A stretch of 44,058 nt of DNA, from the NCBI GenBank assembly GCA_903884235.1, contig CAISEB010000022.1, positions 1 through 44,058 on the forward strand, in the 5' to 3' direction. Position 1 is the first letter of the stretch. Each line of letters opens with the position of its first letter. The notes under the pieces are model-generated. The model saw only the letters and a program-made list of their open reading frames with translations. It did not search any database and had not been told where the DNA came from. This document shows positions 6,808-43,465 of the stretch, in pieces. The translations under genes and the position numbers were made by a program. The DNA comes from an uncultured Pseudomonadota bacterium (GTDB lineage Bacteria; Pseudomonadota; Gammaproteobacteria; Steroidobacterales; Steroidobacteraceae).

Positions 6808-6826
6808 GTTGGTCTCCGTCGGGGGC

Positions 6827-7972
6827 TCAGGTCGCAGGCGGCAGGCCCGACGGCACGGCCGTCGGTGTCGCCGGTAGGAAGGTCTGGTCGGTCAGCGTCG
6901 CGAGAAAGTCGACAAGCCGGTCGAGCTCGGCGGCGGACAGGTGCGGTTCCCAGATGTGCCAATGCAGCTGCAGGTGCTCGCCCTTCGGCACCGCGTGGCC
7001 GCGCCCGCCGGTGTAGAACCCCACCGTCTCGCGCAGCGTGGCGAACTGACCCGCGTGGCCGTAGGGTGCCGACAGCGCGACATTGCGAAGGCTAGGTACC
7101 CGGAACCCACCACGCAGGCCGGGAATGCCGGTGACGGCGCCGGCGCCGGGATCGAGTGCGTGCCCGCGGGGCTCCGGCATGCCGATCACCGCGATCTGCT
7201 GGTTCGTGAACAGCGGCGGCGTATGGCACTCGCCGCAACGCGCGACGAACGACCGGAACACGTTGAGCCCCTCGATTTCAGGCGTCGTCAGCGCGTCGTG
7301 CACCCCATGGGCGTACAGGTCGTAGCGGCTATTGAGCGAGACGAGCGTCGATTCGAATGCGGCGAGCGCCGTGTACACCTGCGTGGACTGGATGGATTGC
7401 GTCCCGGGGAATGCCTGTGAGAACAGGTCCCGGTAGGCGGCCACGGCGTTCAGCGCCGCCTCGAGCTTCCCGGGCGTCGTCCCCATCTCGCGTTCGCCGT
7501 AGAGCGGCCCCTGCACCTGCTCCTCGAGTGAATGGGCGCGCCCATCCCAGAACAATTTCTGCAGGAAACCGACGTTCCAAAGGCTCGGCGCATTGCGCCT
7601 GACTTCATGGCCACCGACGCCGACGCTGAGCGCGCGCGGATCCGCGAAGCCGTGTCCCGGGCGATGACAGCTCGCGCACGCGACCTGCCCGGTTGCGGAC
7701 AGGACAGGATCGAAGAACAGGTAGCGACCGAGGTCGATCTGTGCCGGCGTGAAACCATCCCGGAACGCCGGCAACCCCGCCTTCAGTCCGCCAACGCCGG
7801 CGCCGGCAAGCGAGGCGTAGTCCTGGTAGGGCGTATGCAGGCGGCACCGTCCCTGCTCGAGCGCGAAGCTCGCGGGGCACCCGCGCGACAGCGCGATCGG
7901 GGCGACAGGCCCGGCGACCGACGCGGCAGTCGTGCCGACGAGCGCGGCCAGCAGGACGATCGTCCGATTCAC
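6827..7972 (-). CDS. Diheme cytochrome c peroxidase / MauG-like protein
   Basis: 381-residue exported diheme protein with a signal peptide (about 1-20). Heme motifs are C-A-S-C-H (99-103) and C-G-E-C-H (246-250), with the family stretches L-G-R-Y-L-F-F-D-P, R-N-A-P-S-L-W-N-V and P-Y-G-H-A-G-Q-F-A-T-L. This family includes bacterial cytochrome c peroxidases and MauG, which oxidises tryptophans in a partner protein. The length and motifs fit the broad CCP/MauG group and do not tell the two roles apart. The GTG start (7972) overlaps the stop of the c4-like cytochrome in a GTGA arrangement, so translation is coupled. The beta-helix protein downstream could be its electron partner or its substrate (inference). 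Confidence 0.9.
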   Translation of the reverse strand: MNRTIVLLAALVGTTAASVAGPVAPIALSRGCPASFALEQGRCRLHTPYQDYASLAGAGVGGLKAGLPAFRDGFTPAQIDLGRYLFFDPVLSATGQVACASCHRPGHGFADPRALSVGVGGHEVRRNAPSLWNVGFLQKLFWDGRAHSLEEQVQGPLYGEREMGTTPGKLEAALNAVAAYRDLFSQAFPGTQSIQSTQVYTALAAFESTLVSLNSRYDLYAHGVHDALTTPEIEGLNVFRSFVARCGECHTPPLFTNQQIAVIGMPEPRGHALDPGAGAVTGIPGLRGGFRVPSLRNVALSAPYGHAGQFATLRETVGFYTGGRGHAVPKGEHLQLHWHIWEPHLSAAELDRLVDFLATLTDQTFLPATPTAVPSGLPPAT

Positions 7973-8601
7973 GGTCGCAGGCTGGCCGCGTAGGCGATGA
8001 CATCGCGGGCGGCCGCCGCATCCGGCAGCATCGCCGTCACCGCGCGCATCTGGGCGCCGTACCGGTCTGCGGGCTGGGCACCGCGGGTTCCACCCGCGAA
8101 GGCGGCGAGCTGCCGGGACAGGTACGGGACCGACTGCCCCGCAATGCGCGGCGCGCCAAGCGCCGCATTGCCCTGGCCCTTGCCGCCGTGGCAGGCACCG
8201 CAGATTGCGTTGAAATAGTTGCGCCCGTTGTCATTGGTCGCGGCAGCCGTGCCCGGCAACGGCGCCGGCATCCCGGCGACGAAGGCCGCGACGCCCTTGC
8301 GGTCGGCCTCCGACGCGAGCAGGGTCGTCGCAGAGGCGCGCATGGTCGCCCCGAACGTATCGCCGGGCTTCGCGCCACGTGCGCCGCCGGCGAACGCCTG
8401 CAGCTGCCGCTCCAGGTAAGGGGCATCGAGTCCCGCGATGGCGGGGGCGCCGGTAGCGGCGACCCCCTCGCCGCGCGCCCCGTGGCACGCGACGCACTTG
8501 GCATACAGCGCCTTGCCATCGACGGCGTACGCCGGCGCCGCCCCGGCCACCACGAAGGCGACCAGGGCGAACCACGCCGGCCCGTGATCAGAACGCGGCA
8601 T
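7969..8601 (-). CDS. Diheme cytochrome c4-like protein
   Basis: 210-residue exported cytochrome with a signal peptide (about 8-26) and two homologous halves. Each half has a heme motif, C-V-A-C-H at 36-40 and C-G-A-C-H at 134-138, followed by the paired stretch P-Y-L-x-R-Q-L-x-A-F-A-G-G seen in c4-type cytochromes. It likely carries electrons in the periplasm between membrane complexes and the neighbouring peroxidase-like protein. The start at 8601 is chosen because it puts the signal peptide at the N-terminus and overlaps the TonB receptor stop by 14 bases; a longer open frame to 8685 lies wholly inside the receptor gene. The stop overlaps the next start. Confidence 0.9.
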   Translation of the reverse strand: MPRSDHGPAWFALVAFVVAGAAPAYAVDGKALYAKCVACHGARGEGVAATGAPAIAGLDAPYLERQLQAFAGGARGAKPGDTFGATMRASATTLLASEADRKGVAAFVAGMPAPLPGTAAATNDNGRNYFNAICGACHGGKGQGNAALGAPRIAGQSVPYLSRQLAAFAGGTRGAQPADRYGAQMRAVTAMLPDAAAARDVIAYAASLRP

Positions 8602-10975
8602 GCAGCTCCACGCCGTAGCGACGCGGCGGGTTGACCGAGGCGATCGGAGTGGCGAACACCGCCGCCGTGATCTGGTTGATGCCATTCACGTAGCGCTTGT
8701 CGAACAGGTTGGAGCCATACGCCGAAACGCCCCACTTGCCAGTCGGGCTGCGCCAGCCGATGCGGGCATCGGTCTGGCTCTGCGCGACGCCGAGCGGGAA
8801 GGACGCCTGCGGCAGGCAGGACATCCGCGGCACCGACTCGTCGTTGCAGCGCGTGGCACCGCGATAGCTGTCGGCGACGAAGAAGTCGATCGTACCCCGG
8901 TCGGCGAGGGTCACCGTGTAGTCCGCGCTGGCCGCGAACGACCAGGTCGGCTCTCCGGTCGGCTGGCCGGCGAGGTTGCCGACGATCGACGCGTACTTGG
9001 TGTACGTCGAGTTGATGTAGGCGGACGCCAGCGTCAGCGTGAGCGCCGAGACCGGCTGCCAGGCGAGGTCCAGGTCCAGGCCGTAGGCCTTCTGGTCACT
9101 GGACGACACCGTGTACTCCGGCACGTTGCCCGTCACCTGGTTCAGCGAGAGCGACTGCTTGTTCTTGTACTCGTAGTGGTACAGCGAGCCGTTCAGCCTG
9201 ACGCGGGCCTCGGGGAAGGTCGTCTTGAACCCGAGCTCGTAGTTCCAGACATCCTCGTTGCGATACTGCCCGTTGATCGAGACGGCATCGAATCCGCCCG
9301 GCGTGAACCCCTTCGCGATCGACGCATACACCATCTTGTTGGGATCGATCTTGTAGTCGAGCACGACGCGCGGGCTGACGTCGCTCCAGGATGCCGAGGC
9401 ATTGAACGGCGTCCCCTGCGCGGCAAGGCCCCGCGGATCGATGAAGATCAGGTTGGGCACCGTGATGTCGATCCCGGTCGCCGCGAGGATCGCGGCGCCG
9501 TAGGCGTCGAGCTCGGGCGCCACGCGCCACGGCGCGACCCACTGGAAGTCCTTGGAATCGCGGGAATAGCGCACGCCCGTCGTGAGGTTCAGGCGGTCCG
9601 TGAGGTGCCAGATCACGTCGGCGAACACGCCGAGCGAGCGGAACCGCCCGTCGTCGCGCATCGCCTCGTTCCACGGCAGGCCCAGCAGGTTGATGGGAAT
9701 GCCATTGGCGGCGAGCAGCTGGCTCGTCGGACCGTAGACTCCCGCGCAGCCGGCGTCAGGCCCCTGGATGCAGAGATTCTGGAAGAGCGTGTCGACGCCA
9801 TCCGTATAGAGGTGCGTATCGGAACTCTGCTGCGCGTGCTCGTACGAGTAGCTGGCGCCCGCCACCCAGTCCGCACGCGAGGTCTTGCCGGAGAGCTTGA
9901 TCTCGTTGTACCAGGCGTTGTTGTGCTCGATGTTGTTCGTGTCGAAGTACGTGGCGATCCGGTTCGTGCCGTCCTCGTCCTCGCGGTTGTGCGTCTGGAA
10001 CTGACGCCAGTCCGTCGTCCAGCTGACGTCGACGTCGCCGATGCGCTTCTGGAACTGCACCATCAGGTCGTCGAACTTGCGGTACTCGGAATTGCCCACG
10101 ACATCGTTGTAGATCGGCGCCGTGATCGGATTGAGGAACGACGCCCCGGTCGGATCGGCCGGGTACGGCGGCAGGACGCCCGCCGCAGGGACCGGCACGA
10201 GGCCGATCGCCGGACGCGCGAGCTGGTTGACCGCATCATGGTTCCAGCTGAGCAGCAGCTTCGTGTCCGGTGCGATATCCCAGCGGAAGGCAGCGCGAGC
10301 GGCCCAGTTCTTTTCCGGATTCAGCTTGCGCCCGGTCGCCGCGTCGCGCAGGAAGCCGTCCGCCTCGTTGCTGAGTGCATTGAATCGCAGCGCCATGCCC
10401 TCGCGCAGCGGGACGTTCAGCATCCCTTCGTAGCGCTGCTTGCCCTCGCTGCCGAAGCGCAGGTCGGCACTGCCCTCGAGGACATCGGTCGGCTTGCGCG
10501 TCACGACGGAAATCGCGCCCGCGGCGCTGCTGCGCCCGAGCAGCGTGCCTTGCGGACCCTTCAGGACCTCGACCCGCTCGATGTCGTTGAAGGCGAGGAA
10601 CGACGCGCCCGAGCGCGCCGCGTAGACGCCGTCGATGTAGACGCCGACCGCCGGGTCCGTGCCCACGCCGAAATCGGATCCGCTGATGCCACGCAACGCG
10701 TAGTGCGGCTGTGTGGGGCTGTCGCCGCTGACGACGAGGCCCGGCAGCCACTTGTCCATCGCCGCCATGTTGTCCGCGACGTGCTTGGCCATGAGCTCCG
10801 TCGAGACCACCTCGACCGCGATCGGCACGTCCTGCATCCGCTGCTCGCGGCGCTGCGCCGTGACCACGACCTCGCCCAGGACGTCAGTGCCACCGGGGGC
10901 GGTATCCGCATAGGACGCGGGAGCGGCCGTGCAGGCCGCGCAGATCGCCAGTGACAGCATGTTGTTGCGACGCAT
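8588..10975 (-). CDS. TonB-dependent outer-membrane receptor
   Basis: 795-residue receptor: signal peptide (about 1-23), TonB-box-like D-V-L-G-E-V-V-V-T-A, plug domain (about 45-165, with the typical R-V-E-V-L-K-G-P-Q-G-T-L-L-G-R motif), then a 22-strand barrel ending in V-E-L-H-A-A-F, whose terminal Phe is the usual assembly signal. The Q-R-R-E-Q-R-M-Q-D-V-P-I-A-V stretch marks the group common in sphingomonads and Steroidobacter relatives. GAGGGGA precedes the ATG. It is the first gene of the operon with the c4-like cytochrome, the MauG-like protein and the beta-helix cytochrome. A sigma70 promoter and palindrome lie upstream, facing the TetR gene. The ligand is unknown; linkage to oxidoreductases suggests uptake tied to oxidation of a substrate or metal complex. 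Confidence 0.92.
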   Translation of the reverse strand: MRRNNMLSLAICAACTAAPASYADTAPGGTDVLGEVVVTAQRREQRMQDVPIAVEVVSTELMAKHVADNMAAMDKWLPGLVVSGDSPTQPHYALRGISGSDFGVGTDPAVGVYIDGVYAARSGASFLAFNDIERVEVLKGPQGTLLGRSSAAGAISVVTRKPTDVLEGSADLRFGSEGKQRYEGMLNVPLREGMALRFNALSNEADGFLRDAATGRKLNPEKNWAARAAFRWDIAPDTKLLLSWNHDAVNQLARPAIGLVPVPAAGVLPPYPADPTGASFLNPITAPIYNDVVGNSEYRKFDDLMVQFQKRIGDVDVSWTTDWRQFQTHNREDEDGTNRIATYFDTNNIEHNNAWYNEIKLSGKTSRADWVAGASYSYEHAQQSSDTHLYTDGVDTLFQNLCIQGPDAGCAGVYGPTSQLLAANGIPINLLGLPWNEAMRDDGRFRSLGVFADVIWHLTDRLNLTTGVRYSRDSKDFQWVAPWRVAPELDAYGAAILAATGIDITVPNLIFIDPRGLAAQGTPFNASASWSDVSPRVVLDYKIDPNKMVYASIAKGFTPGGFDAVSINGQYRNEDVWNYELGFKTTFPEARVRLNGSLYHYEYKNKQSLSLNQVTGNVPEYTVSSSDQKAYGLDLDLAWQPVSALTLTLASAYINSTYTKYASIVGNLAGQPTGEPTWSFAASADYTVTLADRGTIDFFVADSYRGATRCNDESVPRMSCLPQASFPLGVAQSQTDARIGWRSPTGKWGVSAYGSNLFDKRYVNGINQITAAVFATPIASVNPPRRYGVELHAAF

Positions 10976-31729: not shown

Positions 31730-32197
31730 CTAGGGGATCATCCCGAGCGCACGCTGGTATTCAACGCGATTGGTCATCAGGTAACGGCGAATCGTCGCCG
31801 GGTTCCCGACCGCAGAGGGCTGGCCTGCGGCGTACGCGGCACGGGCCTGCGCGATCGCATCGTCACGACGCTGCGCGATTGCCGGCTTCGTCGAGGGCCG
31901 CTTGGCGGTGGCATCCGTCGGCGCGATCGAGTCGGATTCGCGCGCCGCCACTTCGCCGACGATGCCGGCCGCTGCCGGGGCCGGGGCCCTTGCAACGGCG
32001 GCCGCAGGAGCGGGCACCTCGACCGGAGCGGTGTAGCTAAACAGCTGCTCGCACTGCCCCTGCGGTACGTTCGTCAGCGACACAGTGCCGCTGCTCGGGT
32101 CCGTGCAGGAATACATCGCGTTCTCGGCGTGGGCCGACCCCACCGCGGCGACGCTGGCGCCCACCGCGAAGAGGATACCGAACAAGGTCTTCTTCAT
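31730..32197 (-). CDS. Small exported protein, DUF4124-like N-terminus
   Basis: 155 residues. A signal peptide (about 3-24, A-H-A-E) is followed by a short domain, Y-S-C-T-D-P-S-S-G-T-V-S-L-T-N-V-P, which resembles DUF4124 proteins that begin with a strand-turn-strand unit, here with two Cys that could pair. An Ala/Pro-rich linker and a charged helical C-terminus (R-R-D-D-A-I-A-Q-A-R-A-A-Y) complete it. ATG 32197 is chosen because GGAGA lies upstream and it starts the signal peptide. It lies just downstream of the mofC-like gene on the same strand, 89 bases away, so it may be the last gene of that locus. Function unknown. Confidence 0.65.
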   Translation of the reverse strand: MKKTLFGILFAVGASVAAVGSAHAENAMYSCTDPSSGTVSLTNVPQGQCEQLFSYTAPVEVPAPAAAVARAPAPAAAGIVGEVAARESDSIAPTDATAKRPSTKPAIAQRRDDAIAQARAAYAAGQPSAVGNPATIRRYLMTNRVEYQRALGMIP

Positions 32198-32286: not shown

Positions 32287-34080
32287 TCACGGCACGCTCC
32301 AGGCGCTGTCGGCGACCAGAGCACCGTCGCCGTCGAAATGAGCGATGTAGCCGCCCTTGGACGCGAAGCGCTGGCCCGGCCCGAGCGTCAGGCGCGGAAA
32401 CACGGTCGTGCCTTCGCGCTTGCCGAACGAGCTGCCGGCGAGTTGCAGCGCCTGCAGGCCCGGAGCTTCCACGCTCGCGGCGTGGTCAGCGATCACCCCT
32501 GCGCTCTGCGCGTGCGTGCGCACGTGGTTCTGGGTGCTGCTGTAGTACTCGGCCTCTGCCTTGCTGCCCTCGCGCTTGGCGATCATGGTCTCGGCACGCT
32601 CCAGCAGGTAGTCGCGATGAAGGTTGTTCAGCATTTCCGAGATGGTGTCGGTCAGGAATGCGAACGAGAAATACACCTGCGACTGCATGATTTCGTCGTC
32701 CAGCGGGATATGCCGCTGGTTCAGCCAGGCCTTGAAGTAGGCGAGGTTCGCGGCCCGGCGTCCAGGCAGCTCGTAGGGATAGACCAGCTGGGCCGACGTC
32801 CGCCATGCGCCCTTCAGAGGGATCCGCTCTGCGCCGCCGAGCACCGCGGAGAAATAGCTGTGGCCCACGGGCGGCGCGAATGCCTGAAGTTGCGCGACGT
32901 CGGGCTCGGCCAGCCAGAACATCACGACATCGCTGGGCCCTGCGTCGGCGACGGCGCCCTGCACGGCCGTCGCGGCGTCGCCGGAAATGATCCGGTCCAC
33001 GACCTGCACCTTCGACGAGGCCAGGGCGTCGGTCAGTGCCTTGGCCGCGCCGCGCCCGGTCGCATCGTCGCGGAATACCTGGATGACGCGATGGGTCGGT
33101 GATGCCTCCGGAAGCATGAGTTGCGTGGCCAGCACCCTGGTTTCGAGGACGACCCCGCCGCTGAAATAGAGGCTGTACCGGGGGGCATTCGCAGGCGGCA
33201 TCGTCACGCTCGGGAACCAGCACGGGACGCGCTCGCGGTCGCAGAACGAGTCGACCGGACCCCAATCGGAGCCACCGAGCCCCGACACGAGCGCGAAGAC
33301 GGGCTGGCGAGCGTAGTTGGTCTCGAGCTGCGCTGCCCAGGTGTCAGGGGCTCCATGCAGCTCCCAGACATCGAGGACCCAGCGGCGCTCGGTCCCGAGC
33401 ACCAGCTCCGCGGCCGACGTCATGTGGTGGCGCGACCGCCCGGTGGACGCGGTCATCGTGCTGCCGTTCTTCTGGGCAACGATCTTCTTCGCCATGTCGA
33501 TGAACAGCGCGCGCCGAGCGGCCGGTACATCCGGCGCCACGACGGTCGCAAAGTGGATCGTGCTGTCATCGACGCCCGGCGACCAGCTCGACGACAGCGA
33601 GTGCAGGTAGGCAACCAGTGCATCCATGTCCGCCGGGCCCAGGCGATAGCGAGGCATCAGCGGCTGCATCTTCTGTCCATCGACCCGTCGCCCCTCCCGC
33701 ACCGCGGCGACCACTGTCGCATCGGTATAGGGCTCGTGGGCGCGGTTGAACGCCTTTCCCGATCGCGGATCCATCGTCGCGATGACCCGGTCACCCGTGG
33801 AGAAGAGCGCATTGCCGGTCACCGGCGGCGCCTGGATGTCCCCTTCGACTGCGCCCATGCCGCTCGGCCGGTGGCATTGAGCGCACGTGGCGTCGGCGCC
33901 GGTGACGACGGTGCCATCGAGTCGGGTCCCGCGCAGGACGCTACCGTCGGACAGGACGCCCTCCTGGTAGATTCGTCGCCCGACTTCCACGGCATCCGCA
34001 CCGAAGGCCGGCGCAGCCAGGACACAGCACAGGAGCGCGAGGATCGTGGCAGGGAGCAGCCGTGTGTCCGGGAAGCCCAT
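32287..34080 (-). CDS. mofC: Cytochrome c fused to periplasmic-binding-protein-like domain (MofC-like)
   Basis: 597 residues. A signal peptide (about 7-27) leads to a class I cytochrome c domain (about 30-165) with C-A-Q-C-H at 66-70 and a candidate axial Met in P-L-M-P-R-Y. From about 175 to the end is an alpha/beta domain resembling type 1 periplasmic binding proteins of amino-acid ABC transporters, with H-F-A-T-V-V-A-P-D-V, Q-P-V-F-A-L-V-S-G-L-G and V-I-Q-V-F-R-D-D. Only three bases separate it from the FKBP gene. In the Leptothrix mofABC locus the third gene encodes a heme-binding protein, which this matches by order and heme motif. It may carry electrons from the multicopper oxidase or sense a ligand through the binding domain (inference). 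Confidence 0.8.
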   Translation of the reverse strand: MGFPDTRLLPATILALLCCVLAAPAFGADAVEVGRRIYQEGVLSDGSVLRGTRLDGTVVTGADATCAQCHRPSGMGAVEGDIQAPPVTGNALFSTGDRVIATMDPRSGKAFNRAHEPYTDATVVAAVREGRRVDGQKMQPLMPRYRLGPADMDALVAYLHSLSSSWSPGVDDSTIHFATVVAPDVPAARRALFIDMAKKIVAQKNGSTMTASTGRSRHHMTSAAELVLGTERRWVLDVWELHGAPDTWAAQLETNYARQPVFALVSGLGGSDWGPVDSFCDRERVPCWFPSVTMPPANAPRYSLYFSGGVVLETRVLATQLMLPEASPTHRVIQVFRDDATGRGAAKALTDALASSKVQVVDRIISGDAATAVQGAVADAGPSDVVMFWLAEPDVAQLQAFAPPVGHSYFSAVLGGAERIPLKGAWRTSAQLVYPYELPGRRAANLAYFKAWLNQRHIPLDDEIMQSQVYFSFAFLTDTISEMLNNLHRDYLLERAETMIAKREGSKAEAEYYSSTQNHVRTHAQSAGVIADHAASVEAPGLQALQLAGSSFGKREGTTVFPRLTLGPGQRFASKGGYIAHFDGDGALVADSAWSVP

Positions 34081-34083
34081 GCG

Positions 34084-34776
34084 TCAGGGTGTCTTCTTGT
34101 CCAGGAGTTCGATCTCGAAGACCAGCACCGCGTTCGGTCCGATCTGGGTACCGGTCCCGCGGTCGCCGTATGCGAGCCTCGGCGGTACGACGATCCGCCA
34201 GCGAGATCCGACCGGCATCAGCTGCAATGCCTCCTTCCAGCCGGGGATCGTCTGCGCCGCGACGAACTCCGACGGCTTGCCAGCCGGCGACGCGTCGAAT
34301 TCGGTGCCGTCGAGCAACGTGCCGCGGTAGTTCACGACCACCGTGTCGCTCAGCACGGGCTTCGGTCCCTTGCCCGGCTTGAGCACCGTGTACTGCAGGC
34401 CGCTCTCGGTCGTCGTGACGCCCTCCTTCTTGCCGTTCTCGGCGAGGTACTGGGCGCCCGTCTCTTTGTTCCGCTCGCCGGTTGCCCGGCGATTGGTCAC
34501 CATGTTCTTGTGGAGTTCCTGCTGGACGCGGCTCATGACCGCGCGGAGCTCCTTGTCCGTCATCATCAGCTTGCCATCCGACAGGCCGTCGCGAAGTCCG
34601 CGCACGAGCATGTCGACGTCGATGTCGACGTTGTCCTGGCGCAGCGTGCGCGCCGTCTGCGCGCCGATCGCGTAGCTCTCCTGCTGCTTCAGGTCCTTGA
34701 AGGACGCTGCGTCATCCGCGAAGGCCTGGGAGGCCAGGAGCGACGCGATGGCGAGGGCTAGGCACTTCGTCCGCAT
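34084..34776 (-). CDS. mofB: Exported FKBP-type peptidyl-prolyl isomerase (MofB-like)
   Basis: 230 residues. A signal peptide (about 1-20, S-Q-A-F-A-D) is followed by the helical dimerisation domain of FkpA/Mip-type isomerases (about 25-110: S-Y-A-I-G-A-Q-T-A-R-T-L) and the FKBP domain (about 120-228) with V-V-N-Y-R-G-T-L-L-D-G-T-E-F-D-A-S, I-P-G-W-K-E-A-L-Q-L-M-P-V-G-S and R-L-A-Y-G-D-R-G. It speeds proline isomerisation and folding in the periplasm. Lying between a very large multicopper oxidase and a cytochrome, it matches MofB of the Leptothrix locus. The obvious client is the roughly 1,900-residue oxidase with its many Pro-rich fibronectin domains (inference). Confidence 0.9.
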   Translation of the reverse strand: MRTKCLALAIASLLASQAFADDAASFKDLKQQESYAIGAQTARTLRQDNVDIDVDMLVRGLRDGLSDGKLMMTDKELRAVMSRVQQELHKNMVTNRRATGERNKETGAQYLAENGKKEGVTTTESGLQYTVLKPGKGPKPVLSDTVVVNYRGTLLDGTEFDASPAGKPSEFVAAQTIPGWKEALQLMPVGSRWRIVVPPRLAYGDRGTGTQIGPNAVLVFEIELLDKKTP

Positions 34777-34892
34777 TTCATCTTCCTTGAGAAAAAGACG
34801 CCATCCCCCGTTTCATCCACCGTCCGGCCCGGGGGCTGGCGGCGAAGTCACGAACGATGGCGTCCAGATTCTAAATCCGATCTCAGCGCAGC

Positions 34893-34924
34893 GGCCCGCA
34901 TCGAGTTCACATTCGATGCGGGCC
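34893..34924 (-). terminator. 12-bp perfect hairpin between mofA and mofB
   Basis: A 12-bp perfect stem GGCCCGCATCGA / TCGATGCGGGCC with an 8-base loop begins 13 bases past the oxidase stop and lies in the 161-base gap before the FKBP gene. On the oxidase strand no T-run follows, so it may be a partial terminator or processing and stability element that sets the ratio of oxidase to downstream proteins. Confidence 0.6.
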
Positions 34925-34937
34925 GTGCGTCTCTTTC

Positions 34938-37900
34938 TTACGGCGCCGTCGTCACCGACACCACCACGCTCTGGTTGGTGCCACCCGCCGTCACTTCCTG
35001 AACCTGGAAGTAGTACGTCGTGTTGCGAGCGAGGCCACCTACGGTCGTCGTCACTGCCGTCGCGCCGACGTTCGTCGTCGTCACGCCGCCGGTGAGGACA
35101 CCGTTCGTCTGGCCAGCGGTCGGCGCGCCCTGCGTGCCGGTGGCGTTGCGCAGCACGCGGATACCGGTGACGGTCGAACCGTTCGCCGCTCCGAGCGCCC
35201 AGGCCAACGTGACCTGGCGCGTGCCCGCACCTGCCGTCACGCCGGTCGTGACAGCTGCAGCGCTCACGCCCGCAGGGGCGTTGGCAAGCTCACGCGGCGT
35301 GACGGTGGCCGAGTTGGCGCCGTTGCCCGAGGTCCCTGCCGCGTTCACCGCCACCAGGTGGAAGCGGTACTGCGTGTCAGGCGTCAGCGCCGCACTCTGC
35401 CACGTCGTTCCAGTCACACCCGTCGCGACAGCCGTCGCCACGCTCCACGCACCGCCGAAGCCGGTGCGCGACTGCTGGTAGACCGTGTAGGTCACGCCAG
35501 CCGGGGGAGCCGGCAGCGTCAGCGTCACGGTCGGCGCGGACGTGCTGATCGGCGACACTGCTGCGACAGGGGCTGCCGGGGCTGCCGGGGCTGCCGGCGG
35601 CTGGAAGCTGAACGTCGCGGAGTAGGCGCTGCTACCGACCGAATTCGTCGCCAGTACCCGGAAGTAGTACGTGGTGTTCGAATTCAGGCCCGCGAACGGC
35701 ACGTTGGTGCCGATCACGTTGAGCACCGTCTGCAGGCCACGCGTGAACGTCGCATTCGTCGCACGCTGCACCGTGTAGCTCGTCGCCGGACCGGTCGCAG
35801 GCGCGATCCAGTTCAGCACGACGCTGGTCGAGGTCGGCAGGGATGCCGTGCAGCAGGTCGGGATGCCCGGCGCCACGGTGGCTGCCGGCGTCGCCGCCGT
35901 CGCCTGGCCGGACGGCGCACTCGAGCCCGTGGCGTTCGTCGCGTACACCTGGAACAGGTACGTCGTCGACGGCGTCAGGCCGGTGACGGTCGTGCCCGTG
36001 CCCACGAGCGGGGCGAGGCTGGTCCAGCTGGCGCCATTGTTCGCGCTGTACTGCACCATGTAGCTCGCCGCACCGTTGGTCGACGCGGTCCATGCCAGGG
36101 TCACGCTCGTGCTGCTGGCCGGGTTCGCCGACAGGTTCGTCGGGGCCACCGGCAGCGTCAGGGCGCTCGCCGAGTTGGACGCCACACTCGCGCCGGAGGC
36201 GTTGACCGCCACCACCGTGAACGTGTAGGTCGTGTTCGGGCCGAGGCCCGAAACCACCGCCGTCGTGCCGTTGTACGCGACGCTACCCGCGACCGGCGCG
36301 ACCGTGACCGTGTAGGTCAGGCCGGCGCTGTTCGCCGGGGCCGTCCACGAGAGGGCAACCGTCGACGAGCTGATCGCGCCCGTCGTCAGCGCCGCCGGGG
36401 CGGCCGGAAGCGTCAGGCCAGTCGCCGGCGCGGAGGCCGCGCCAGTGCCGGTCGCGTTGACCGCCGAGACGGTGAACGAGTACGACGTGTTCGCCGCAAG
36501 GCCAGTCACGACGTCAGGCGACGTCGCGGCCACGCCCGGGGCACCACCGCGCGAAACGAGGTAGCTCGTCACGGCCTGGGCCGCCGGCGAGGCCGGCCAG
36601 TTGACCTGCAGCGAGCTCACGGTCGGGTTGGTCACCGTGACCCCGGCAACGGCCGCAGGCGCCATCACGACGGTCGTCGGTGCCGACGGGGCCGAGCTGC
36701 TCGCACCCGAGGCCGTGACCGGCTGGGCGTTGTCCGAGGTCGTCTCGCCAGCAGCCGTCACCGCAACCACGCGGTACGAGAACTGCGACGAACCACTCGC
36801 CACCGCGATCACGGTGTAGGTGTAGGCATTGCCCACGGCCACCGCGCTGTCGACGAAGTTGCCGGCAGGCTGGTTCGACGCGATCTTCACGTTGTTGCGA
36901 TAGACGTCGTAGCCCGTCGCGCCGGCGATCAGCGTCAGCGGCTGCAGCGACAGCGTCACCGACGTCGGGGTCACCGACACCAGGGTCGGAGCCGCCGGCG
37001 CCGCGAGGGCGGAACCCGCCGCCGCAGTCGTGTCGACGAAGCTCGTAGCATTGGCCGGTGCATTGACCGCTCCCGTGATCGCGTTGATCTTGTTCAGGCC
37101 AGCCGCGACCGGCGCATACGCACCGACCACTCCGGCTGCATCAACGGACGCACGCTCCACACGGAACCCGATTTCATTGTTCGGGTTGCCAAGGAAGCCC
37201 GTGACGTTGCTGATGGGATCATAGGACGTCAGCGTTGCCGGGACCGGGGTCGGATCGACCCAGGAGACGGTAACGCCGGCTGCTCCACCCGTCGCACTGG
37301 TGGTCGTGAACGCAGGGGCCTTCACTTCCTTCGCATTGAAGATGAACGGACGCATGAAGTCGTTCTCTTCGTGGCCGAGGATGTGGCAGTGCCACACGTA
37401 CTCCGAGCCGTAGTCGACGGCCGCATTCGTGTACGGCGTGGTCGGCGCATTGCCGGTGGCCGGATCGATCTGCGTGATGCCGTGGTTGTCCGTCGGCAGC
37501 TGGTTCGGGGCCGGCTGACGGAAGCTGTGCGGCAGGCCAAACGGCGTCGGAGGAGCAGTCTTCGCACGCACCGCGACGATGATGTCCTCGAGGGGGTGCA
37601 TCTTGACGGTTTCCTTCCAACCCACTTCGTCAGCCGGGATCGGCTTGATCGTACCGTCCCAACCCACACGGTTGATGACCTGCACGTTGATGAAGTGGAA
37701 GTGGACCGGGTGCGAGTCGACGCCGTTGTGGGTGATCTTCCAGAACTGGGTCTCACCGTTGGCAATCGTCTCCGTGGCCGGATCGACGTAGGCCAAGGGG
37801 ATCGTCGTCTGGATCGACACGTTCGTGAACGGCAGCTCGACGCCCAGCGTGGCGTTCATGCGGCCATAGTCGGCCTCGAACAGCTCCTGGATCGCCTTGC

Positions 37901-40751
37901 TCTCGACATACGCGTTCACCGGCGCACCGACGACCGACTTGACCAGGCCGGCATTGGCGCCCTTGCGGATGTTCGCCAGCGTCGTCAGGCAGTTCGCCGT
38001 CGTGTTGCAGGTCGGGGCCGGCGTGTAGTTGAACACGTCCGCCGCAGCCGGGATGGTCAGCGCGTTGTACTTGTTCAGGTAGATCGCGCCCGTGAAGATG
38101 TGCTCATACGGGGCCGTCGTCGAGAAGCCGAGCGCGGTACCCATCGGGGCGTACTCGGGCGTCGGAACGACTGGCTTCGGCTGCGTCGCGATGTAGGCGG
38201 CGAGCAGCTGGGTGTTGAGCGCAGCGACGTCGAACGGCGCGGTCGCGCCGGTCGCGTTGACGTTGATCTGCATGATCGTGCGCGTGTTCGGGCCGTAGCC
38301 GATCTCGGTGTTCGGCGCGCCACCGGCACCGGTCTGGTCACCGTCGCCCGTGTAGTAGTCGATGCGCGGATCGCCGGCAGGAACCGGGGCACCCGAGTCG
38401 TTGTACAGGATCAGCGTCTTACCCGCGTACTGCGAGAAGTCGATGATGATGTCCGCGCGCTCCGCGGGCCCGAGCCACAGGCCACGCTCGAGTACGTTGA
38501 GGACGGTGACCGAGCGCTTGTTGTACTCGTAGTTGATCGGCGTGGCCGGGATGACGACCGCCTGCTGGAAGAGACCACCCTCATTGCCGATGCGGATGAT
38601 GTCCGGACCGATGTTCGCCGGATCCGGCACGCCGCCCGGGCGGTTGTCCGCCTGGCCCCAGCCGGTGCCGATGAGACCGCCGGCGCAGGGGAACGAGACG
38701 TTGTACAACGTGATGCCGGCACTGTTCGGGCCAGACTCCGTGTAGTTCGCCTTCGTCACCGTGCCATTGGCAGTGACCGACCCGACCGCCTGGCCGGCGG
38801 TGACGCCGTCCGGGCAGTTGTAGGTGACCGACGTCTGCCCGAACGGGCTGTTGAACGGCACCATCTTCACTTCGGTATTGGCGGCCGGGGGGCTCGCGCC
38901 GCCCGACTGGTCGATTGCCTTCTGCGTGCTGTCCGCGACGAACAGGTTCAGGTTCAGCATTCGGTCATTGGCAACGCCGAGGATGCGGAACCGGTAGGCC
39001 GTCGGGTTGACGGTCACCGTCGGATACGCCATGCCGTTGACGATCGGCGTGTCCATGAACGCTTCTGGCGTTGTCGTGGCATTGCCGTACTCGCCGCTCG
39101 GCGTCGCGTAGGTCTGCGGAAACACTGGCCAGAAGAACGAGGCCCCGTCCCAGCGCCCGACCGGGTTGGTCGCGTCCGCCGACATCGGATCCTGGTTCGT
39201 CTCGTAGACGTGCGGGAACCAGAGGTCGCCCTCCTGACCCCAGTGGACGGTATCCCACTTGGCATCTTCGGTCGTAATGTCCTTCGGGACGAAGGTCTTT
39301 TCCTGGATGACCAGCGGAACTTCGGCGGCGACGAGCGCATTGATCGCGCGCTCGGTCGTATCAGTGAGCAGGTAGCCCGCCGCAGTGCCCGCGTACACGT
39401 TCAAGCGCGTCAGGCCCGTCGCATGGTCATGAAAGAACAGAAGGCGACCGGACTGTCCGTTCGGCCAGTAGTACGTGACTGCGCCCGGGCCGGGATTCGG
39501 CATGTCGGGCACGTTGTAGGCGATGTCGCCACGCTTGTAGTTCTGCGCGACGGCCGGGTTCAGCTCGTCCGCGGCCGGCGTGATCCACTGGTGCGGATGA
39601 CCGTCGGACAGCCACGGATTGTCGCCGCCGTGAAGATGCAGCTCCTCGCGGTTCTCGGTGTACTGCTCGAACGCCGGGACGTGCACGTAGCCGACCGGGG
39701 TCGTCGAGCCGTCCGCGTTCAGGCCGCCTAGGCACGCGCTCAACGTCGGGTCGCCCGCATTGTTCGGGCCCGACAGGACGTCGCCACATAGCAGGTCCTT
39801 GAAGCCGCTCTGGGTCTGGCCGTCACCACCGCCAAAGAGCGTGTGGTCGACCGGGATGAACAGGTCGCCCTGGCGATGCCAGGCACCACCCGCGTCGACG
39901 AAGCCATGACCGGCCGGCAGGGCGTTGTAGAACTTCACGCGTGTCGGCGTACCGTGGACCGCGATGATCGTGGGCCCAAGGTAGGAGGGGTTGTCGACCG
40001 CGACGGCCTGCACCTGCTCGAAGCCGTTAACGGCCGCCGGGCGCGTGCTCGGACGCGAGATCAGCACCGGGGAGCCATCGAGGTTCACCAGCGGGAGCGA
40101 TTTGGATCCCGTCGGGCTGATGCCGCCGTTACCCGTAATGCCCGCGAGCGAGTCGGTCGCGACCGGATCGATCTGCACGTAGCCGCGCAACGACGTGGCC
40201 TTCGCGAGGTCAGAGTGCATGCGCTGCGCGTACTCGACGACCGCGATTTCGTAGTAGACCGAGCCTGGGTACGAGGTCGCATCACCGACAGCGACGGGGA
40301 TATATGCACCCGCCGTACTGAGGCCGCTGGGCTGCCAGGTCGCGGAGAGGGCGTTGGGACCAAGCGTCGGCAGCGGGTCGACGAACTTGCGCAGCGCCGT
40401 GCCTGTGTCGCGGGTCTGCAGGCCGGTCAGCGCATCGAACTGCATGCCCATCGGGCTGTTCGCGTAGTACGTGCGGACCTTGATCGCCTTGGTACTGTCG
40501 ATCGCGGAGACGGCAGCGTCGGGCGTGGGGTTCGTCGTGTCGCCCCAGCCAGCACCTGCGCTGGCGGGATTGGCGGCGAAGATCGTCGCCGCGACTCCGA
40601 GCACCGTCAGGACCGCAGCAAGCAGCTTCGGCCTTGCGTGCGTGTCACTTTGGGACTTCTCCGCGTAACGACCTTCCCAGAGCCGCGACCAGAATCGGCC
40701 GGAGCCGAGCCTGGCGAGCGTCGCCTGGGGAACTTTGTTCCTGATGTGCAT
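34938..40751 (-). CDS. mofA: Giant multicopper oxidase with C-terminal fibronectin III domains (MofA-like)
   Basis: 1,937 residues. A long basic N-region precedes a hydrophobic signal (about 43-66, N-P-A-S-A). The cupredoxin region runs to about 1135 and holds all four copper motifs: H-L-H-G (His372, His374), H-D-H (441, 443), H-P-V-H-F-H (1014-1019) and H-C-H-I-L-G-H-E-E-N-D-F-M (1121-1132, Met1132 as axial ligand). The three-domain oxidase is swollen by long insertions, as in MofA and MnxG. About eight fibronectin-III-like domains follow. With FKBP and cytochrome genes downstream in the same order as Leptothrix mofABC, manganese(II) or other metal oxidation at the cell surface is the likely role. 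Substrate is inferred from family and context. AGGA lies 9 bases before the ATG. Confidence 0.88.
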   Translation of the reverse strand: MHIRNKVPQATLARLGSGRFWSRLWEGRYAEKSQSDTHARPKLLAAVLTVLGVAATIFAANPASAGAGWGDTTNPTPDAAVSAIDSTKAIKVRTYYANSPMGMQFDALTGLQTRDTGTALRKFVDPLPTLGPNALSATWQPSGLSTAGAYIPVAVGDATSYPGSVYYEIAVVEYAQRMHSDLAKATSLRGYVQIDPVATDSLAGITGNGGISPTGSKSLPLVNLDGSPVLISRPSTRPAAVNGFEQVQAVAVDNPSYLGPTIIAVHGTPTRVKFYNALPAGHGFVDAGGAWHRQGDLFIPVDHTLFGGGDGQTQSGFKDLLCGDVLSGPNNAGDPTLSACLGGLNADGSTTPVGYVHVPAFEQYTENREELHLHGGDNPWLSDGHPHQWITPAADELNPAVAQNYKRGDIAYNVPDMPNPGPGAVTYYWPNGQSGRLLFFHDHATGLTRLNVYAGTAAGYLLTDTTERAINALVAAEVPLVIQEKTFVPKDITTEDAKWDTVHWGQEGDLWFPHVYETNQDPMSADATNPVGRWDGASFFWPVFPQTYATPSGEYGNATTTPEAFMDTPIVNGMAYPTVTVNPTAYRFRILGVANDRMLNLNLFVADSTQKAIDQSGGASPPAANTEVKMVPFNSPFGQTSVTYNCPDGVTAGQAVGSVTANGTVTKANYTESGPNSAGITLYNVSFPCAGGLIGTGWGQADNRPGGVPDPANIGPDIIRIGNEGGLFQQAVVIPATPINYEYNKRSVTVLNVLERGLWLGPAERADIIIDFSQYAGKTLILYNDSGAPVPAGDPRIDYYTGDGDQTGAGGAPNTEIGYGPNTRTIMQINVNATGATAPFDVAALNTQLLAAYIATQPKPVVPTPEYAPMGTALGFSTTAPYEHIFTGAIYLNKYNALTIPAAADVFNYTPAPTCNTTANCLTTLANIRKGANAGLVKSVVGAPVNAYVESKAIQELFEADYGRMNATLGVELPFTNVSIQTTIPLAYVDPATETIANGETQFWKITHNGVDSHPVHFHFINVQVINRVGWDGTIKPIPADEVGWKETVKMHPLEDIIVAVRAKTAPPTPFGLPHSFRQPAPNQLPTDNHGITQIDPATGNAPTTPYTNAAVDYGSEYVWHCHILGHEENDFMRPFIFNAKEVKAPAFTTTSATGGAAGVTVSWVDPTPVPATLTSYDPISNVTGFLGNPNNEIGFRVERASVDAAGVVGAYAPVAAGLNKINAITGAVNAPANATSFVDTTAAAGSALAAPAAPTLVSVTPTSVTLSLQPLTLIAGATGYDVYRNNVKIASNQPAGNFVDSAVAVGNAYTYTVIAVASGSSQFSYRVVAVTAAGETTSDNAQPVTASGASSSAPSAPTTVVMAPAAVAGVTVTNPTVSSLQVNWPASPAAQAVTSYLVSRGGAPGVAATSPDVVTGLAANTSYSFTVSAVNATGTGAASAPATGLTLPAAPAALTTGAISSSTVALSWTAPANSAGLTYTVTVAPVAGSVAYNGTTAVVSGLGPNTTYTFTVVAVNASGASVASNSASALTLPVAPTNLSANPASSTSVTLAWTASTNGAASYMVQYSANNGASWTSLAPLVGTGTTVTGLTPSTTYLFQVYATNATGSSAPSGQATAATPAATVAPGIPTCCTASLPTSTSVVLNWIAPATGPATSYTVQRATNATFTRGLQTVLNVIGTNVPFAGLNSNTTYYFRVLATNSVGSSAYSATFSFQPPAAPAAPAAPVAAVSPISTSAPTVTLTLPAPPAGVTYTVYQQSRTGFGGAWSVATAVATGVTGTTWQSAALTPDTQYRFHLVAVNAAGTSGNGANSATVTPRELANAPAGVSAAAVTTGVTAGAGTRQVTLAWALGAANGSTVTGIRVLRNATGTQGAPTAGQTNGVLTGGVTTTNVGATAVTTTVGGLARNTTYYFQVQEVTAGGTNQSVVVSVTTAP
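34941..37330 (-). repeat. About eight tandem fibronectin-III-like domains in the oxidase
   Basis: Residues from about 1140 to the C-terminus form repeated units of 80-110 residues, each with a Pro-rich start (A-P-x-x-P or L-P-x-A-P), a V-x-L-x-W core strand and a T-T-Y-x-F-x-V-x-A-x-N-A-x-G end. They are diverged protein repeats and not recent DNA duplications. Such domains often hold enzymes at the cell surface or on polysaccharide. Confidence 0.75.
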
Positions 40752-40830
40752 CGCAAGTGTCCTAATGCGAAGTGGACTGTCGGAACGCGATCGCCGGAAC
40801 TCTTTTCCGTTTTTCCGTGACGCGCACTCT

Positions 40831-40854
40831 GCGCTTGGGAAATTTCCCTAGCGC
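40831..40854. promoter_or_regulatory. 24-bp near-perfect palindrome upstream of mofA
   Basis: The perfect centre GGGAAATTTCCC (40837-40848) is flanked by GCGC on both sides after two unpaired bases. It lies 80 bases before the oxidase ATG and would cover the predicted transcription start, the usual place for a repressor site. Confidence 0.5.
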
Positions 40855-40859
40855 GGCGC

Positions 40860-40888
40860 GAATGTGTCACGAGACGTTCACTTGACAA
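40860..40888 (-). promoter_or_regulatory. Possible sigma70 promoter for mofA
   Basis: On the minus strand TTGTCA (40883-40888) is followed after 17 bases by ACATTC (40860-40865). The -35 is good and the -10 poor, as in activator-dependent promoters. The palindrome at 40831-40854 would overlap the start point. Confidence 0.3.
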
Positions 40889-41196
40889 CCCACATCGGCA
40901 ATCGGCCTACCACGCGATTAACCGAGTTCACCCCATTGCAAATCAACTTGAAATTTGCATCCCCGACTTTTTGTGTGACTTAGCGAACATTCGCTGCGGC
41001 AATCCACTATCACGCGTCGTCGATGGGATGAAACTCATTCGCGTTCCGCGCTAAATGCCTAAAAATGCAGCACTTGCGTGATGCATCTCATTCGCGTTGA
41101 GGAGCGAAAAGCGCGTCGTTGAGCGCGTGTGAATACGAATCACTCGCGATTCGGAAGGAGAAATCCGGCAGCGACGAATGCGCTGCGAAGATCAAC
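40889..41196. other. Upstream region of the mof locus with several short repeats
   Basis: Most of the 484-base gap between mofA and ahpF, more A+T-rich than its flanks and without a credible gene. It holds an inverted repeat GCAAAT-N9-ATTTGC (40938-40958), the small palindrome GCGAA-CA-TTCGC (40983-40994), the 12-base direct repeat CTCATTCGCGTT (41034-41045 and 41087-41098, 53 bases apart), and an inverted repeat CGAATC-N6-GATTCG (41135-41152). The density of repeats suggests regulator binding; no known consensus fits. Confidence 0.45.
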
Positions 41197-41221
41197 GAGG
41201 CGACGCGCGGTGCGTCGTCTC
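41197..41221 (-). terminator. Hairpin after ahpF
   Basis: On the minus strand a 10-bp stem with one mismatch (GAGACGACGC / GCGTCGCCTC) and a 5-base loop starts 14 bases past the ahpF stop and is followed by TTGATCTT. A reasonable terminator. Confidence 0.5.
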
Positions 41222-41235
41222 GTCGTAGCACGGCG

Positions 41236-42798
41236 TCACGCAGCCGCGGACACCGGCATGCGGATCAGATGATCGAACGCACCGAGTGCGGCCTTCGCTC
41301 CCTCTCCGACGGCGATGACGATCTGCTTGAACGGCACCGTCGTGCAATCGCCGGCCGCGAACACGCCGGGCACCGAGGTCTGGCCACGCGCGTCGACCTC
41401 GATCTCGCCACGCGGCGAGAGCTTGACCGTGCCCTTCAGCCAGTCGGTGTTCGGCACGAGGCCGATCTGCACGAAGATCCCCGCAAGCGGGACGGCGTGC
41501 GAGGCGCCACTGCTGCGGTCCTTGTAGAGGAGCCCGGTCACCCGCTCGCCATCGCCGGTCACTTCCGTCGTCAGTGCGCCGGTGATCACCGTCACGTTCG
41601 GCAGGCTGTGCAGCTTGCGGGTCAGCACCGCATCGGCCCTGAGCGCCGTGTCGAATTCGATCAGCGTCACGTGGCTGACGATGCCGGCGAGGTCGATCGC
41701 GGCCTCGACGCCGGAATTGCCACCGCCGATCACCGCGACAGGCTTGCCCTTGAAGAGCGGGCCGTCGCAATGCGGGCAGTAGGCGACGCCGCGATTGCGG
41801 TACTCCGCCTCGCCGGGGACGTTCATCTCGCGCCACCGGGCGCCGGTCGCGAGCACGACCGAGCGTGCCTTCACCGAGCCGCCATCCCGGAAACGGACCT
41901 CGATCAGGTCGCCCGGCACGAGCGCCTCGGCGCGCTGCAGGTTCATGATGTCCACGTCATACGAGCGGACGTGCTGTTCGAGCGCGGCCGCGAGCTTCGG
42001 TCCTTGGGTCTCGGTGACCGAGATGAAGTTCTCGATGCCAAGTGTATCCAGCACCTGTCCGCCGAAGCGCTCGGCGGCGACGCCGGTACGGATGCCCTTG
42101 CGTGCCGCGTAGATCGCCGCCGCCGCACCGGCCGGCCCGCCGCCGACGACCAGCACGTCGTACGGCGCCTTGCCGGACATCGCCGCGGCCTCGCGGGCCG
42201 CGGCGCCCGTGTCGAGCTTCGCGATGATTTCCTCGAGGCCCATCCGCCCCTGGCCGAACGGGGCGCCGTTCAGGAACACGGACGGGACCGCCATCACCTG
42301 GCGGCGGCTGACCTCGTCCTGGTACAGGGCGCCATCGACCATCGTGTGGCGGATGCGGGAATTGATGACCGCCATCAGGTTCAGTGCCTGCACGACGTCC
42401 GGGCAGTTCTGGCAGCTGAGCGAGATGAAGGTCTCGAAGACGAGGTCGCCGGGCAGCGCCGCGATCTGCGCGACCAGCTCCGGCGTGACCTTGGGTGGGT
42501 AGCCACCGACCTGCAGGAGCGCGAGCACGAGCGAGGTGAATTCATGGCCCATCGGGATGCCGGCAAAGCGGATCCGGGCCTCGGTACCCCGGGCCCGCAC
42601 CGCGAACGACGGCGCCGGGGCGGCAGGATCGTCGACCTCGACGACGGTGACGAGATCGGACAGGGACGCGATGTCCGACAGCAGCTGGGACAGTTCCGCC
42701 GACGCGGGGGTCGCGTCGAGCGTGGGCACGAGTTCGATCGGCCCGGCGAGTCGGCCGAGATAGCCCTGCAGCTGTGCCTTCATGTTGTCGTCGAGCAT
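41236..42798 (-). CDS. ahpF: Alkyl hydroperoxide reductase subunit F
   Basis: 520 residues, as in E. coli AhpF. The N-terminal double-thioredoxin-fold domain carries C-Q-N-C (Cys129, Cys132), and the thioredoxin-reductase-like part has the FAD motif [11 protein letters not shown] and C-P-H-C (Cys341, Cys344). It takes electrons from NADH and reduces AhpC after each peroxide turnover. ATG 42798 is chosen because M-L-D-D-N-M-K matches the family N-terminus and AGGTG lies 6 bases upstream; GTG 42807 and ATG 42783 are alternatives. It lies downstream of ahpC on the same strand, with a long hairpin in the 103-base gap, so AhpC is probably made in excess. Confidence 0.95.
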
Positions 42799-42825
42799 CG
42801 CAATCACCTATGGGGAATCTGGGGT

Positions 42826-42867
42826 GGCGGCACCGGCCCGGGCGGGGAGTCCCGGGCCGGTGCCGCC
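42826..42867 (-). promoter_or_regulatory. 17-bp perfect hairpin between ahpC and ahpF
   Basis: The arms 42826-42842 and 42851-42867 are perfectly complementary over 17 bases, all but one pair of them G-C, with an 8-base loop. It begins 34 bases past the ahpC stop. Without a T-run on the transcript side it is more likely an attenuating or mRNA-processing element than a full terminator. Confidence 0.65.
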
Positions 42868-42901
42868 TTCAGCGGAATCGACAGTCAGAGGAGGAGCGGA
42901 A

Positions 42902-43465
42902 TCAGATCTTGCCGACCAGGTCGAGCGACGGCGCGAGGGTCTTGGCACCCGGCGTCCACTTGGCCGGGCACACCTCACCCGGGTGGCTCGCGACGTACTG
43001 GGCCGCCTGCACCTTGCGAAGCAGCTCCTTGGCGTCACGGCCGATGCCGTTGTCGTGCACTTCCATGACCTTGATCTCGCCGGCCGGATTGATCACGAAC
43101 GTGCCGCGCAGTGAGAGACCCTCTTCCTCGATCAGCACTTCGAAGTTGCGGGCGAGCGTCGCGGTCGGATCGCCGACCAGCGGGTACTGCACCTTCTTGA
43201 TCGTGTCCGAGGTGTCGTGCCAGGCCTTGTGCGCGAAGTGCGTGTCGGTCGACACGCCGTAGATCTCGACGCCCAGCTTCTGGAACTCGGCGTACTGATC
43301 GGCGAGGTCGCCAAGCTCGGTCGGGCAGACGAACGTGAAGTCGGCCGGGTAGAACACGAAGACCGACCACTTGCCCTTCAGGCCCTCGCTCGTCACGGGG
43401 ACGAACTTGCCATTGTGGTACGCGGTGGCCTTGAAGGGCTTGATGACGGTATTGATCAGGGACAT
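42902..43465 (-). CDS. ahpC: Alkyl hydroperoxide reductase subunit C (peroxiredoxin)
   Basis: 187-residue typical 2-Cys peroxiredoxin. The peroxidatic Cys47 is in [10 protein letters not shown] and the resolving Cys166 in G-E-V-C-P-A-K-W, both at the positions of the E. coli protein. It reduces hydrogen peroxide and organic peroxides in the cytoplasm and is recharged by AhpF, encoded downstream. GAGGA precedes the ATG. A sigma70 promoter and an OxyR-like site lie upstream in the divergent gap with the cupin gene, so induction by peroxide is expected. Having it next to a locus full of oxidases and peroxidase-like cytochromes may be chance. Confidence 0.96.

Follow-up and report, generated by a model that had tools for sequence, protein, structure and literature searches.

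The DNA considered here is a 44,058-nucleotide stretch from an uncultured member of the Steroidobacteraceae (contig CAISEB010000022.1 of assembly GCA_903884235.1), called the window below, and its features lie on the minus strand unless stated. Three adjacent genes in it have the anatomy of a mofABC locus, the arrangement linked to Mn(II) oxidation in Leptothrix discophora. The mofA-type gene (34938..40751) encodes a multicopper oxidase of 1937 amino acids (open reading frame (ORF) call, Pfam and ligand reading), the mofB-type gene (34084..34776) a 230-residue peptidyl-prolyl isomerase with FKBP_N and FKBP_C domains (Pfam 1.2e-26 and 1e-25, NCBIfam), and the mofC-type gene (32287..34080) a 597-residue protein that joins a cytochrome c to a periplasmic binding protein fold of type I (Pfam, alignment and model). 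Pfam and NCBIfam are concordant in naming the three genes, the cytochrome having a Pfam match only. Just 3 bases part mofB from mofC and 161 bases part mofA from mofB. The N-termini of MofA and MofB are signal-like, and export of all three products is predicted, by eye, from such N-termini. An earlier note, made from the letters alone, had read the one-strand order oxidase, FKBP isomerase, cytochrome over this span as mofA-mofB-mofC, and the ORFs and Pfam bear this out. Three features by which membership can be tested are present: the order of the oxidase motifs, the order of mofB and mofC downstream, and the architecture of MofC. In G006, a genome of the same genus as the window's own genome (G000), both ahpC-ahpF-mofA and mofA-mofB-mofC recur, on two contigs (loci L028 and L027), and with eight such loci in all (below) the arrangement is more than chance.

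Just 3' of mofC lies orf4 (31730..32197), encoding a small protein of no recognised family with a signal-like N-terminus; five further genomes have a relative of it directly 3' of mofC, by a weak match in two of them. On the other side the genes ahpC-ahpF (41236-43465) are followed by an intergenic region of 484 bases (40752..41235) immediately upstream of mofA, in which a sigma-70 promoter scan found 0 promoters against 0.9 expected. An ORF of 1457 codons antisense to mofA (35358-39731, plus strand) was discarded because codon scoring, trained partly on mofA itself, retained mofA; it looks like a shadow cast by the GC-rich frame of that gene. A plasmid search returned 44 records, all under 60% identity and 0 covering 80% of the query. 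Further along the window (5248-10975) a NosD/beta-helix protein that weakly matches a cytochrome is clustered with a di-haem CCP/MauG peroxidase, a TonB receptor and a cytochrome c bearing two haem motifs.

The oxidase and its cytochrome

The claim of the earlier note that the copper ligands are complete stands, since all eleven could be located in the oxidase: ten histidines and a cysteine (H372, H374, H441, H443, H1014, H1017, H1019, H1121, C1122, H1123 and H1127). Motifs A and B are N-terminal (39423..39638, computed from the residue numbers), with HLHGG from residue 372 and HDH at 441-443, and motifs C and D C-terminal (37353..37712), with HPVHFH at 1014-1019 and HCHILGHEENDFM at 1121-1133. 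The core spans residues 62-1140 or so and is followed by about 800 residues carrying fn3 domains, a C-terminal region (34941..37340) with at least four Pfam fn3 stretches; Pfam gives 5.8e-09 for Cu-oxidase_2 and 4.7e-52 for fn3 over 4 stretches. A model of the core (1089 residues, 50-row alignment) is of medium confidence, with a mean predicted local distance difference test score (pLDDT) of 72.2 and a predicted template modelling (TM) score of 0.80, and its best solved matches are CotA laccases (5zll, E 3.2e-36, target TM 0.80).

The type-1 axial position, on which the earlier note was silent, is occupied by Phe1132 and not by Met. HMMER aligned CotA residues 483-506 to the window oxidase without a gap, and so CotA Met502, the axial residue of its type-1 copper, corresponds to F1132. 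Motif D could be read in 52 of 55 MofA-family proteins, the axial residue being Phe in 22, Met in 25 and Leu in 5. Within the 22-row clade that holds the window oxidase (below) there are 14 Phe and 5 Leu rows, the latter including a paralogue from contig C46 of the same genome, and motif D is missing in 3. Axial Phe also occurs outside this clade, for example in Holophagaceae, and so is not a mark of the clade alone. Axial Phe occurs in high-potential fungal laccases too. In a fungal laccase the axial change L499M brought the type-1 potential down by 140 mV, according to the available part of PMC4220974. Since a non-coordinating axial residue raises the type-1 potential, the window MofA is predicted to be a high-potential oxidase by virtue of its axial Phe.

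In MofC, Pfam finds Cytochrom_C at 1.7e-08 and Peripla_BP_6 below its cut-off, the binding domain being recognised from the predicted fold. Residues C66, C69, H70 and M142 (the Met of an MPRY motif) are invariant in all 17 aligned MofC proteins, so that MofC is read as a one-haem class I His/Met cytochrome c, and conservation makes Met142 the likely haem ligand. The model built on this 17-row alignment (mean pLDDT 76.5) resembles Leu/Ile/Val-type members of the type-I periplasmic binding proteins, with a best E of 1.2e-11, and among its many matches are the Rhodopseudomonas aromatic-acid binding proteins 4evq, 4f8j and 4eyg. That the third gene is related to MofC, as the earlier note proposed, agrees with the published description of MofC as a cytochrome c with a periplasmic binding domain, in the portion of PMC5566968 available.

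Relatives, paralogues and the mofA-mofB gap

A contig scan for MofA relatives, made with two peptide patterns built from five sequences of the window's genus, gave 112 relatives, of which 80 loci were kept. By record title these 80 span Pseudomonadota, Desulfuromonadales and kin, Acidobacteriota, Chloroflexota, Actinomycetota, Nitrospirota, Bacillota, Planctomycetes and archaea; no Leptothrix-titled locus is among them, probably because the patterns derive from the window's genus. In the family of the Comamonadaceae bin a MofC match at 1e-60 occurs in 8 of 299 genomes and a MofA match at 1e-80 in 5 of 399, these being overlapping draws, and any match was seen in 6 of 40 genomes searched as relatives, the window's own included.

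In a tree of 55 MofA cores over 887 columns (quick method, Shimodaira-Hasegawa-like approximate likelihood ratio test (SH-aLRT) only, the rows being free of Leptothrix MofA) the window oxidase falls in a 22-row clade (SH-aLRT 97). The clade comprises proteobacterial oxidases, others without a taxon and three of Geobacter type (L037, L038, L073), and includes those of bin G045 (Comamonadaceae) and of L035/G043, a betaproteobacterial bin. Nearest to the window oxidase is L162 of G048 (60% identity), then L034, L050, L159a and L147 (of the Comamonadaceae bin G045). A quick tree of 36 MofC sequences joins the window cytochrome to its counterparts in G006 and G041 (support 100), inside a 14-row set (96) made up of the cytochromes from the A-B-C loci, from L145, L159 and L179, from a C51 cluster in the window's own genome and from L146; this tree leaves the order within the set largely open. 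Cytochromes of C46-type units (L021, L024, L057) form a group of their own (100), as do their oxidases; L147 and L149 are paired in both trees. Cytochromes that have no neighbouring MofA in their sequenced flanks (L150, L151, L152, L153, L154, L156) lie outside the 14-row set, L146 excepted. The main groups seen among the oxidases thus reappear in the MofC tree, so that oxidase and cytochrome have mostly travelled together and share their descent at the level of these groups.

Gene order was tabulated for 103 MofA rows, 19 loci having been dropped either as duplicates or because they contain other oxidases; many rows are contig fragments and not all are distinct genes (L022 and the first L023 row are one gene, and L035 equals L181). 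The order A-B-C on one strand is found at eight loci in seven genomes (the window, G006, L034, L050, G045, G123 and two in G048), seven listed by the script and L034 added manually because its called FKBP frame overlaps the end of mofA. Those with a taxon in their title are all Pseudomonadota. At L160 (G048) mofB is preceded by a MofA copy without copper motifs; upstream of this copy is the terminal part of a MofA carrying motifs C and D, and the locus has two FKBP genes. MofC follows MofA directly, with no FKBP between, at L021 (contig C46), L024 and L057, and it lies upstream of MofA in 14 rows at 13 loci, mostly of Geobacter type and Holophagaceae but also in the C51 cluster. Neither a MofB nor a MofC partner was found in 62 of the 103 rows within the available flank, many flanks being short.

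Six MofA homologues from four genomes (L145 1569-7220; L159 4404-11141; L160 2298-9830; L178 7166-12058; L179 6411-11456; L180 3-6149) show one and the same pattern of copper-motif loss, with HL[VI]GG, QDR and NS[MI][HR]F in all six and WGSA in five. Five of them begin 13-115 bases behind an intact MofA or the end of one, L145 beginning near a contig end, and in L145, L159 and L179 the copper-less copy stands directly before mofC. The three that are in the tree form one clade (100) whose branches are short, a hint that the copy has been retained as a partner without catalytic activity.

Two hairpins occupy the gap between mofA and mofB. One, of 16 pairs (34891..34926), directly follows the mofA stop, and the other (34797-34864, with five T at 34796-34792; 34792..34864 in all) lies just before the mofB start and is terminator- or attenuator-like. 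Against shuffles the window gap folds with z -6.6 (141 bases) or -6.5 (150 bases). The gap was folded at seven of the eight A-B-C loci, L034 being left out as its frames overlap, and a long stem was found in all seven: besides the window, z was -5.6 (L027), -3.3 (L147), -1.8 (L162, where 13 of 200 shuffles folded equally well), -4.2 (L149), -2.7 (L050) and -5.0 (L160, the gap after the copper-less copy), only part of the gap being folded in the window, L162, L050 and L160 under a 150-base limit. A T run follows the stem in the window, L147 and L162. This looks like an attenuator that would give mofA transcript in excess of mofBC, bearing in mind that GC-rich gaps fold well anyway.

Besides the window oxidase, its genome holds three further MofA-type oxidases. 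Contig C46 carries a MofA-MofC pair (L021 6221-12266; 1425 and 586 residues) with axial Leu, and contig C51 a tandem of giant oxidases of 2236 and 2651 residues (L022 12794-16999 and L023 2-13363) with FKBP genes and MofC adjoining. In the two C51 giants, as in one of 2653 residues (L026 841-8802), motifs A and B are 731-1162 residues apart, and 62-93 in other oxidases in which both motifs match the pattern. The extra stretch consists of degenerate repeats within the first copper domain, often 40-42 residues apart (AP[T]VT type), visible at the protein level only, as Tandem Repeats Finder gave just two short 2-copy rows in one C51 oxidase gene. A fourth MofC-like cytochrome of the genome lies on contig C28 (L165 8029-18999 and L156 1-11845), together with two short multicopper oxidases, a SCO1/SenC gene, a very long repeat protein (2459 residues ending one stretch and 1656 starting the other) and a further protein that has a weak LolA-like match. 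Contig C9 holds an Mtr-type locus (L164 9793-18372) with a MtrB/PioB porin (311 bits), a 10-haem MtrA-like protein and side-by-side MtrC/OmcA-like proteins with 10 and 9 haem motifs, and contig C25 a NapC/NirT-family protein. A MopA-type heme peroxidase gave no match in this genome, the controls being likewise silent.

As to the host, Leptothrix is a betaproteobacterium. In a GyrA tree of 11 genomes, Leptothrix not among them, the window genome lies outside a supported beta group (100/100; the Comamonadaceae bin, a betaproteobacterial bin, G110 and G048), the tree leaving its backbone open. GyrA of the genus is 64% identical to that of two gammaproteobacterial bins and 60-61% to that of three members of the beta group. 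A 23S class-probe pattern had no match in G000 or its kin and one gamma-type match, in G044.

What the unit may do

MofA was among the first named bacterial Mn oxidases. Despite this early naming its role is still called unproven in those parts of the literature available here. The reading we give about an even chance is that the MofABC unit is a secreted surface oxidase for Mn(II) and/or Fe(II), with MofC its dedicated partner. MofA would be exported and would fold with MofB as helper, and its fn3 tail would anchor it to the cell surface. The type-1 copper, at the high potential expected of an axial Phe, would draw single electrons from a reduced metal outside the cell, be it Mn(II), Fe(II) or both, and the trinuclear centre would hand four electrons to an acceptor that is presumably O2. 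MofC, as a His/Met cytochrome c with a ligand-binding domain, may then serve as the dedicated electron or ligand partner of the oxidase.

Several points weigh against this. The functions of the mof genes are described as still to be elucidated, and OmpB, the relative in Geobacter, is linked to the reduction of Fe(III) oxide (both PMC5566968). The literature consulted yielded no account of metal oxidation by a purified member of this clade. A close MofA orthologue is patchy even within the genus, present in 3 of 15 genomes (G000 itself, G006 and G009), some of the others being incomplete bins, and MofC is tied to MofA by position and descent alone. A laccase for phenolics would look identical in sequence. 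The Mtr-type conduit makes the organism appear equipped for extracellular electron transfer, which weakens the case for Mn oxidation as the sole task of mof, and the metal chemistry could run elsewhere in the genome, for example through that conduit.

One alternative is that the oxidase works as OmpB may do, binding surface Fe minerals and joining cell cytochromes in iron respiration, with or without O2. The porin, the MtrA-like and two MtrC/OmcA-like proteins and the NapC/NirT-family protein of the genome speak for it, as do the three Geobacter-type oxidases in the clade of the window. However, the Mtr locus is on another contig, and the 19 kb examined there gave no MofA, MofB or MofC match; Geobacter-type loci with partners place MofC or MofB upstream of MofA, and their MofC is only 26-30% identical to that of the window, so that this alternative seems unlikely.

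It is also doubtful that MofA acts as a secreted laccase on phenolics or humic matter, with the MofC binding domain capturing an aromatic product or mediator. The CotA-like core, the axial Phe shared with high-potential fungal laccases and the aromatic-acid binders among the fold matches of MofC would all suit such an enzyme. However, in the Foldseek ranking binders of amino acids stand level with those of aromatics, so that either kind of ligand is a candidate for MofC; furthermore no ring-cleavage enzyme was seen among 27 of the 29 called window ORFs that were scanned. A broader and rather slender possibility combines the two directions of extracellular metal redox: several MofA-type high-potential surface oxidases using O2, each with its own cytochrome/binding-protein partner, might work beside an outward MtrCAB/OmcA-type conduit, MofC being a ligand-gated cytochrome rather than a simple shuttle, with a binding-protein domain that takes up the chelate or mediator through which MofA is coupled to the cell. 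A copper or oxidative stress role, CueO-like for copper and with ahpC-ahpF marking a stress locus, is improbable, for although these genes lie directly upstream of mofA in both the window and G006, 484 bases part them from it and no AhpC/AhpF match flanks L034, L050, L147, L149, L160 or L162 (a partial test, with upstream flanks of about 2-9 kb).

The survey of relatives offers handles for testing: the axial residue, Phe in the window clade where other clades have Leu and Met, the cytochrome c/binding-protein fusion inherited with the oxidase, and the natural tandem MofA copies that lack copper motifs in some relatives.

Comparison with known systems

Comparisons with published systems draw on the available portions of the papers cited. 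In contrast to MnxG of Bacillus SG-1, likewise a large multicopper oxidase linked to Mn(II), which has motifs C and D N-terminal and A and B C-terminal (PMC3618234), the window oxidase has the opposite, MofA-like order and so is not of the MnxG type. With CotA laccase, a three-domain multicopper oxidase, the window MofA shares the core fold and the ligand motifs, but motif A lies near residue 105 in CotA and near 372 here, the window protein adds long insertions and the fn3 tail, and the axial residue is Met in the one and Phe in the other. CotA of B. pumilus oxidises Mn(II) (PMC3618234).

OmpB of Geobacter sulfurreducens (GSU1394, compared by description) is a MofA homologue with an fn3 domain and a MofC homologue in its cluster, but this cluster has no mofB and a SCO1-type chaperone instead, and is tied to Fe(III) oxide reduction (PMC5566968). 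The window, which has mofB, is not of this type, and SCO1 had no match in 27 of the 29 called window ORFs scanned (two, including ahpC, against NCBIfam only). The C28 region of the same genome recalls the tandem-oxidase cluster of Sideroxydans ES-1 with its mofC-like gene and copper chaperone (PMC5566968). Likened by description, the mof operon of Rubrivivax sp. A210 contains a metallochaperone (PMC8218464), none of which was found at the window locus; the window likewise has a small signal-bearing product, orf4, following mofC.

Closest is the mofABC locus of Leptothrix discophora SS-1 and L. cholodnii, which shares the trio, the FKBP isomerase and a MofC made of a cytochrome c and a periplasmic binding domain (PMC5566968), as well as motifs A and B N-terminal and C and D C-terminal in MofA (PMC3618234). 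The Leptothrix MofA, likened by description, is however of 1661 residues against 1937 here (PMC3618234), and the host of the window stands outside the betaproteobacterial group tested with GyrA. In Leptothrix ochracea mofA is among the top expressed genes of three bins (PMC11412304), and mutation or disruption of mofA is cited as evidence for its role (PMC7734401, PMC3618234). Among papers that name at least two of mofA, mofB and mofC, those concerned with these genes by title are PMC4454072, PMC5566968 and PMC8218464. Clusters of mofABC have been published for Gallionellaceae, Ferriphaselus and L. cholodnii (PMC5566968) and for Rubrivivax A210 (PMC8218464), and a full trio outside Betaproteobacteria was found nowhere in the available open-licence literature (including PMC4454072, PMC13386937 and PMC10367259); nor was there earlier mention there of the axial Phe, the recurrent hairpin or the paralogue set. 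The suggestion in the earlier note that the window may extend the range of the system thus holds for the host, by the GyrA tree, but its novelty is smaller than supposed and the extension modest, because oxidase relatives span many phyla and mofABC clusters are already published. Overall the MofABC family is a known one, and what the window and its genome add to it is the axial Phe, the recurrent mofA-mofB hairpin, the set of paralogues and this modest extension of range.
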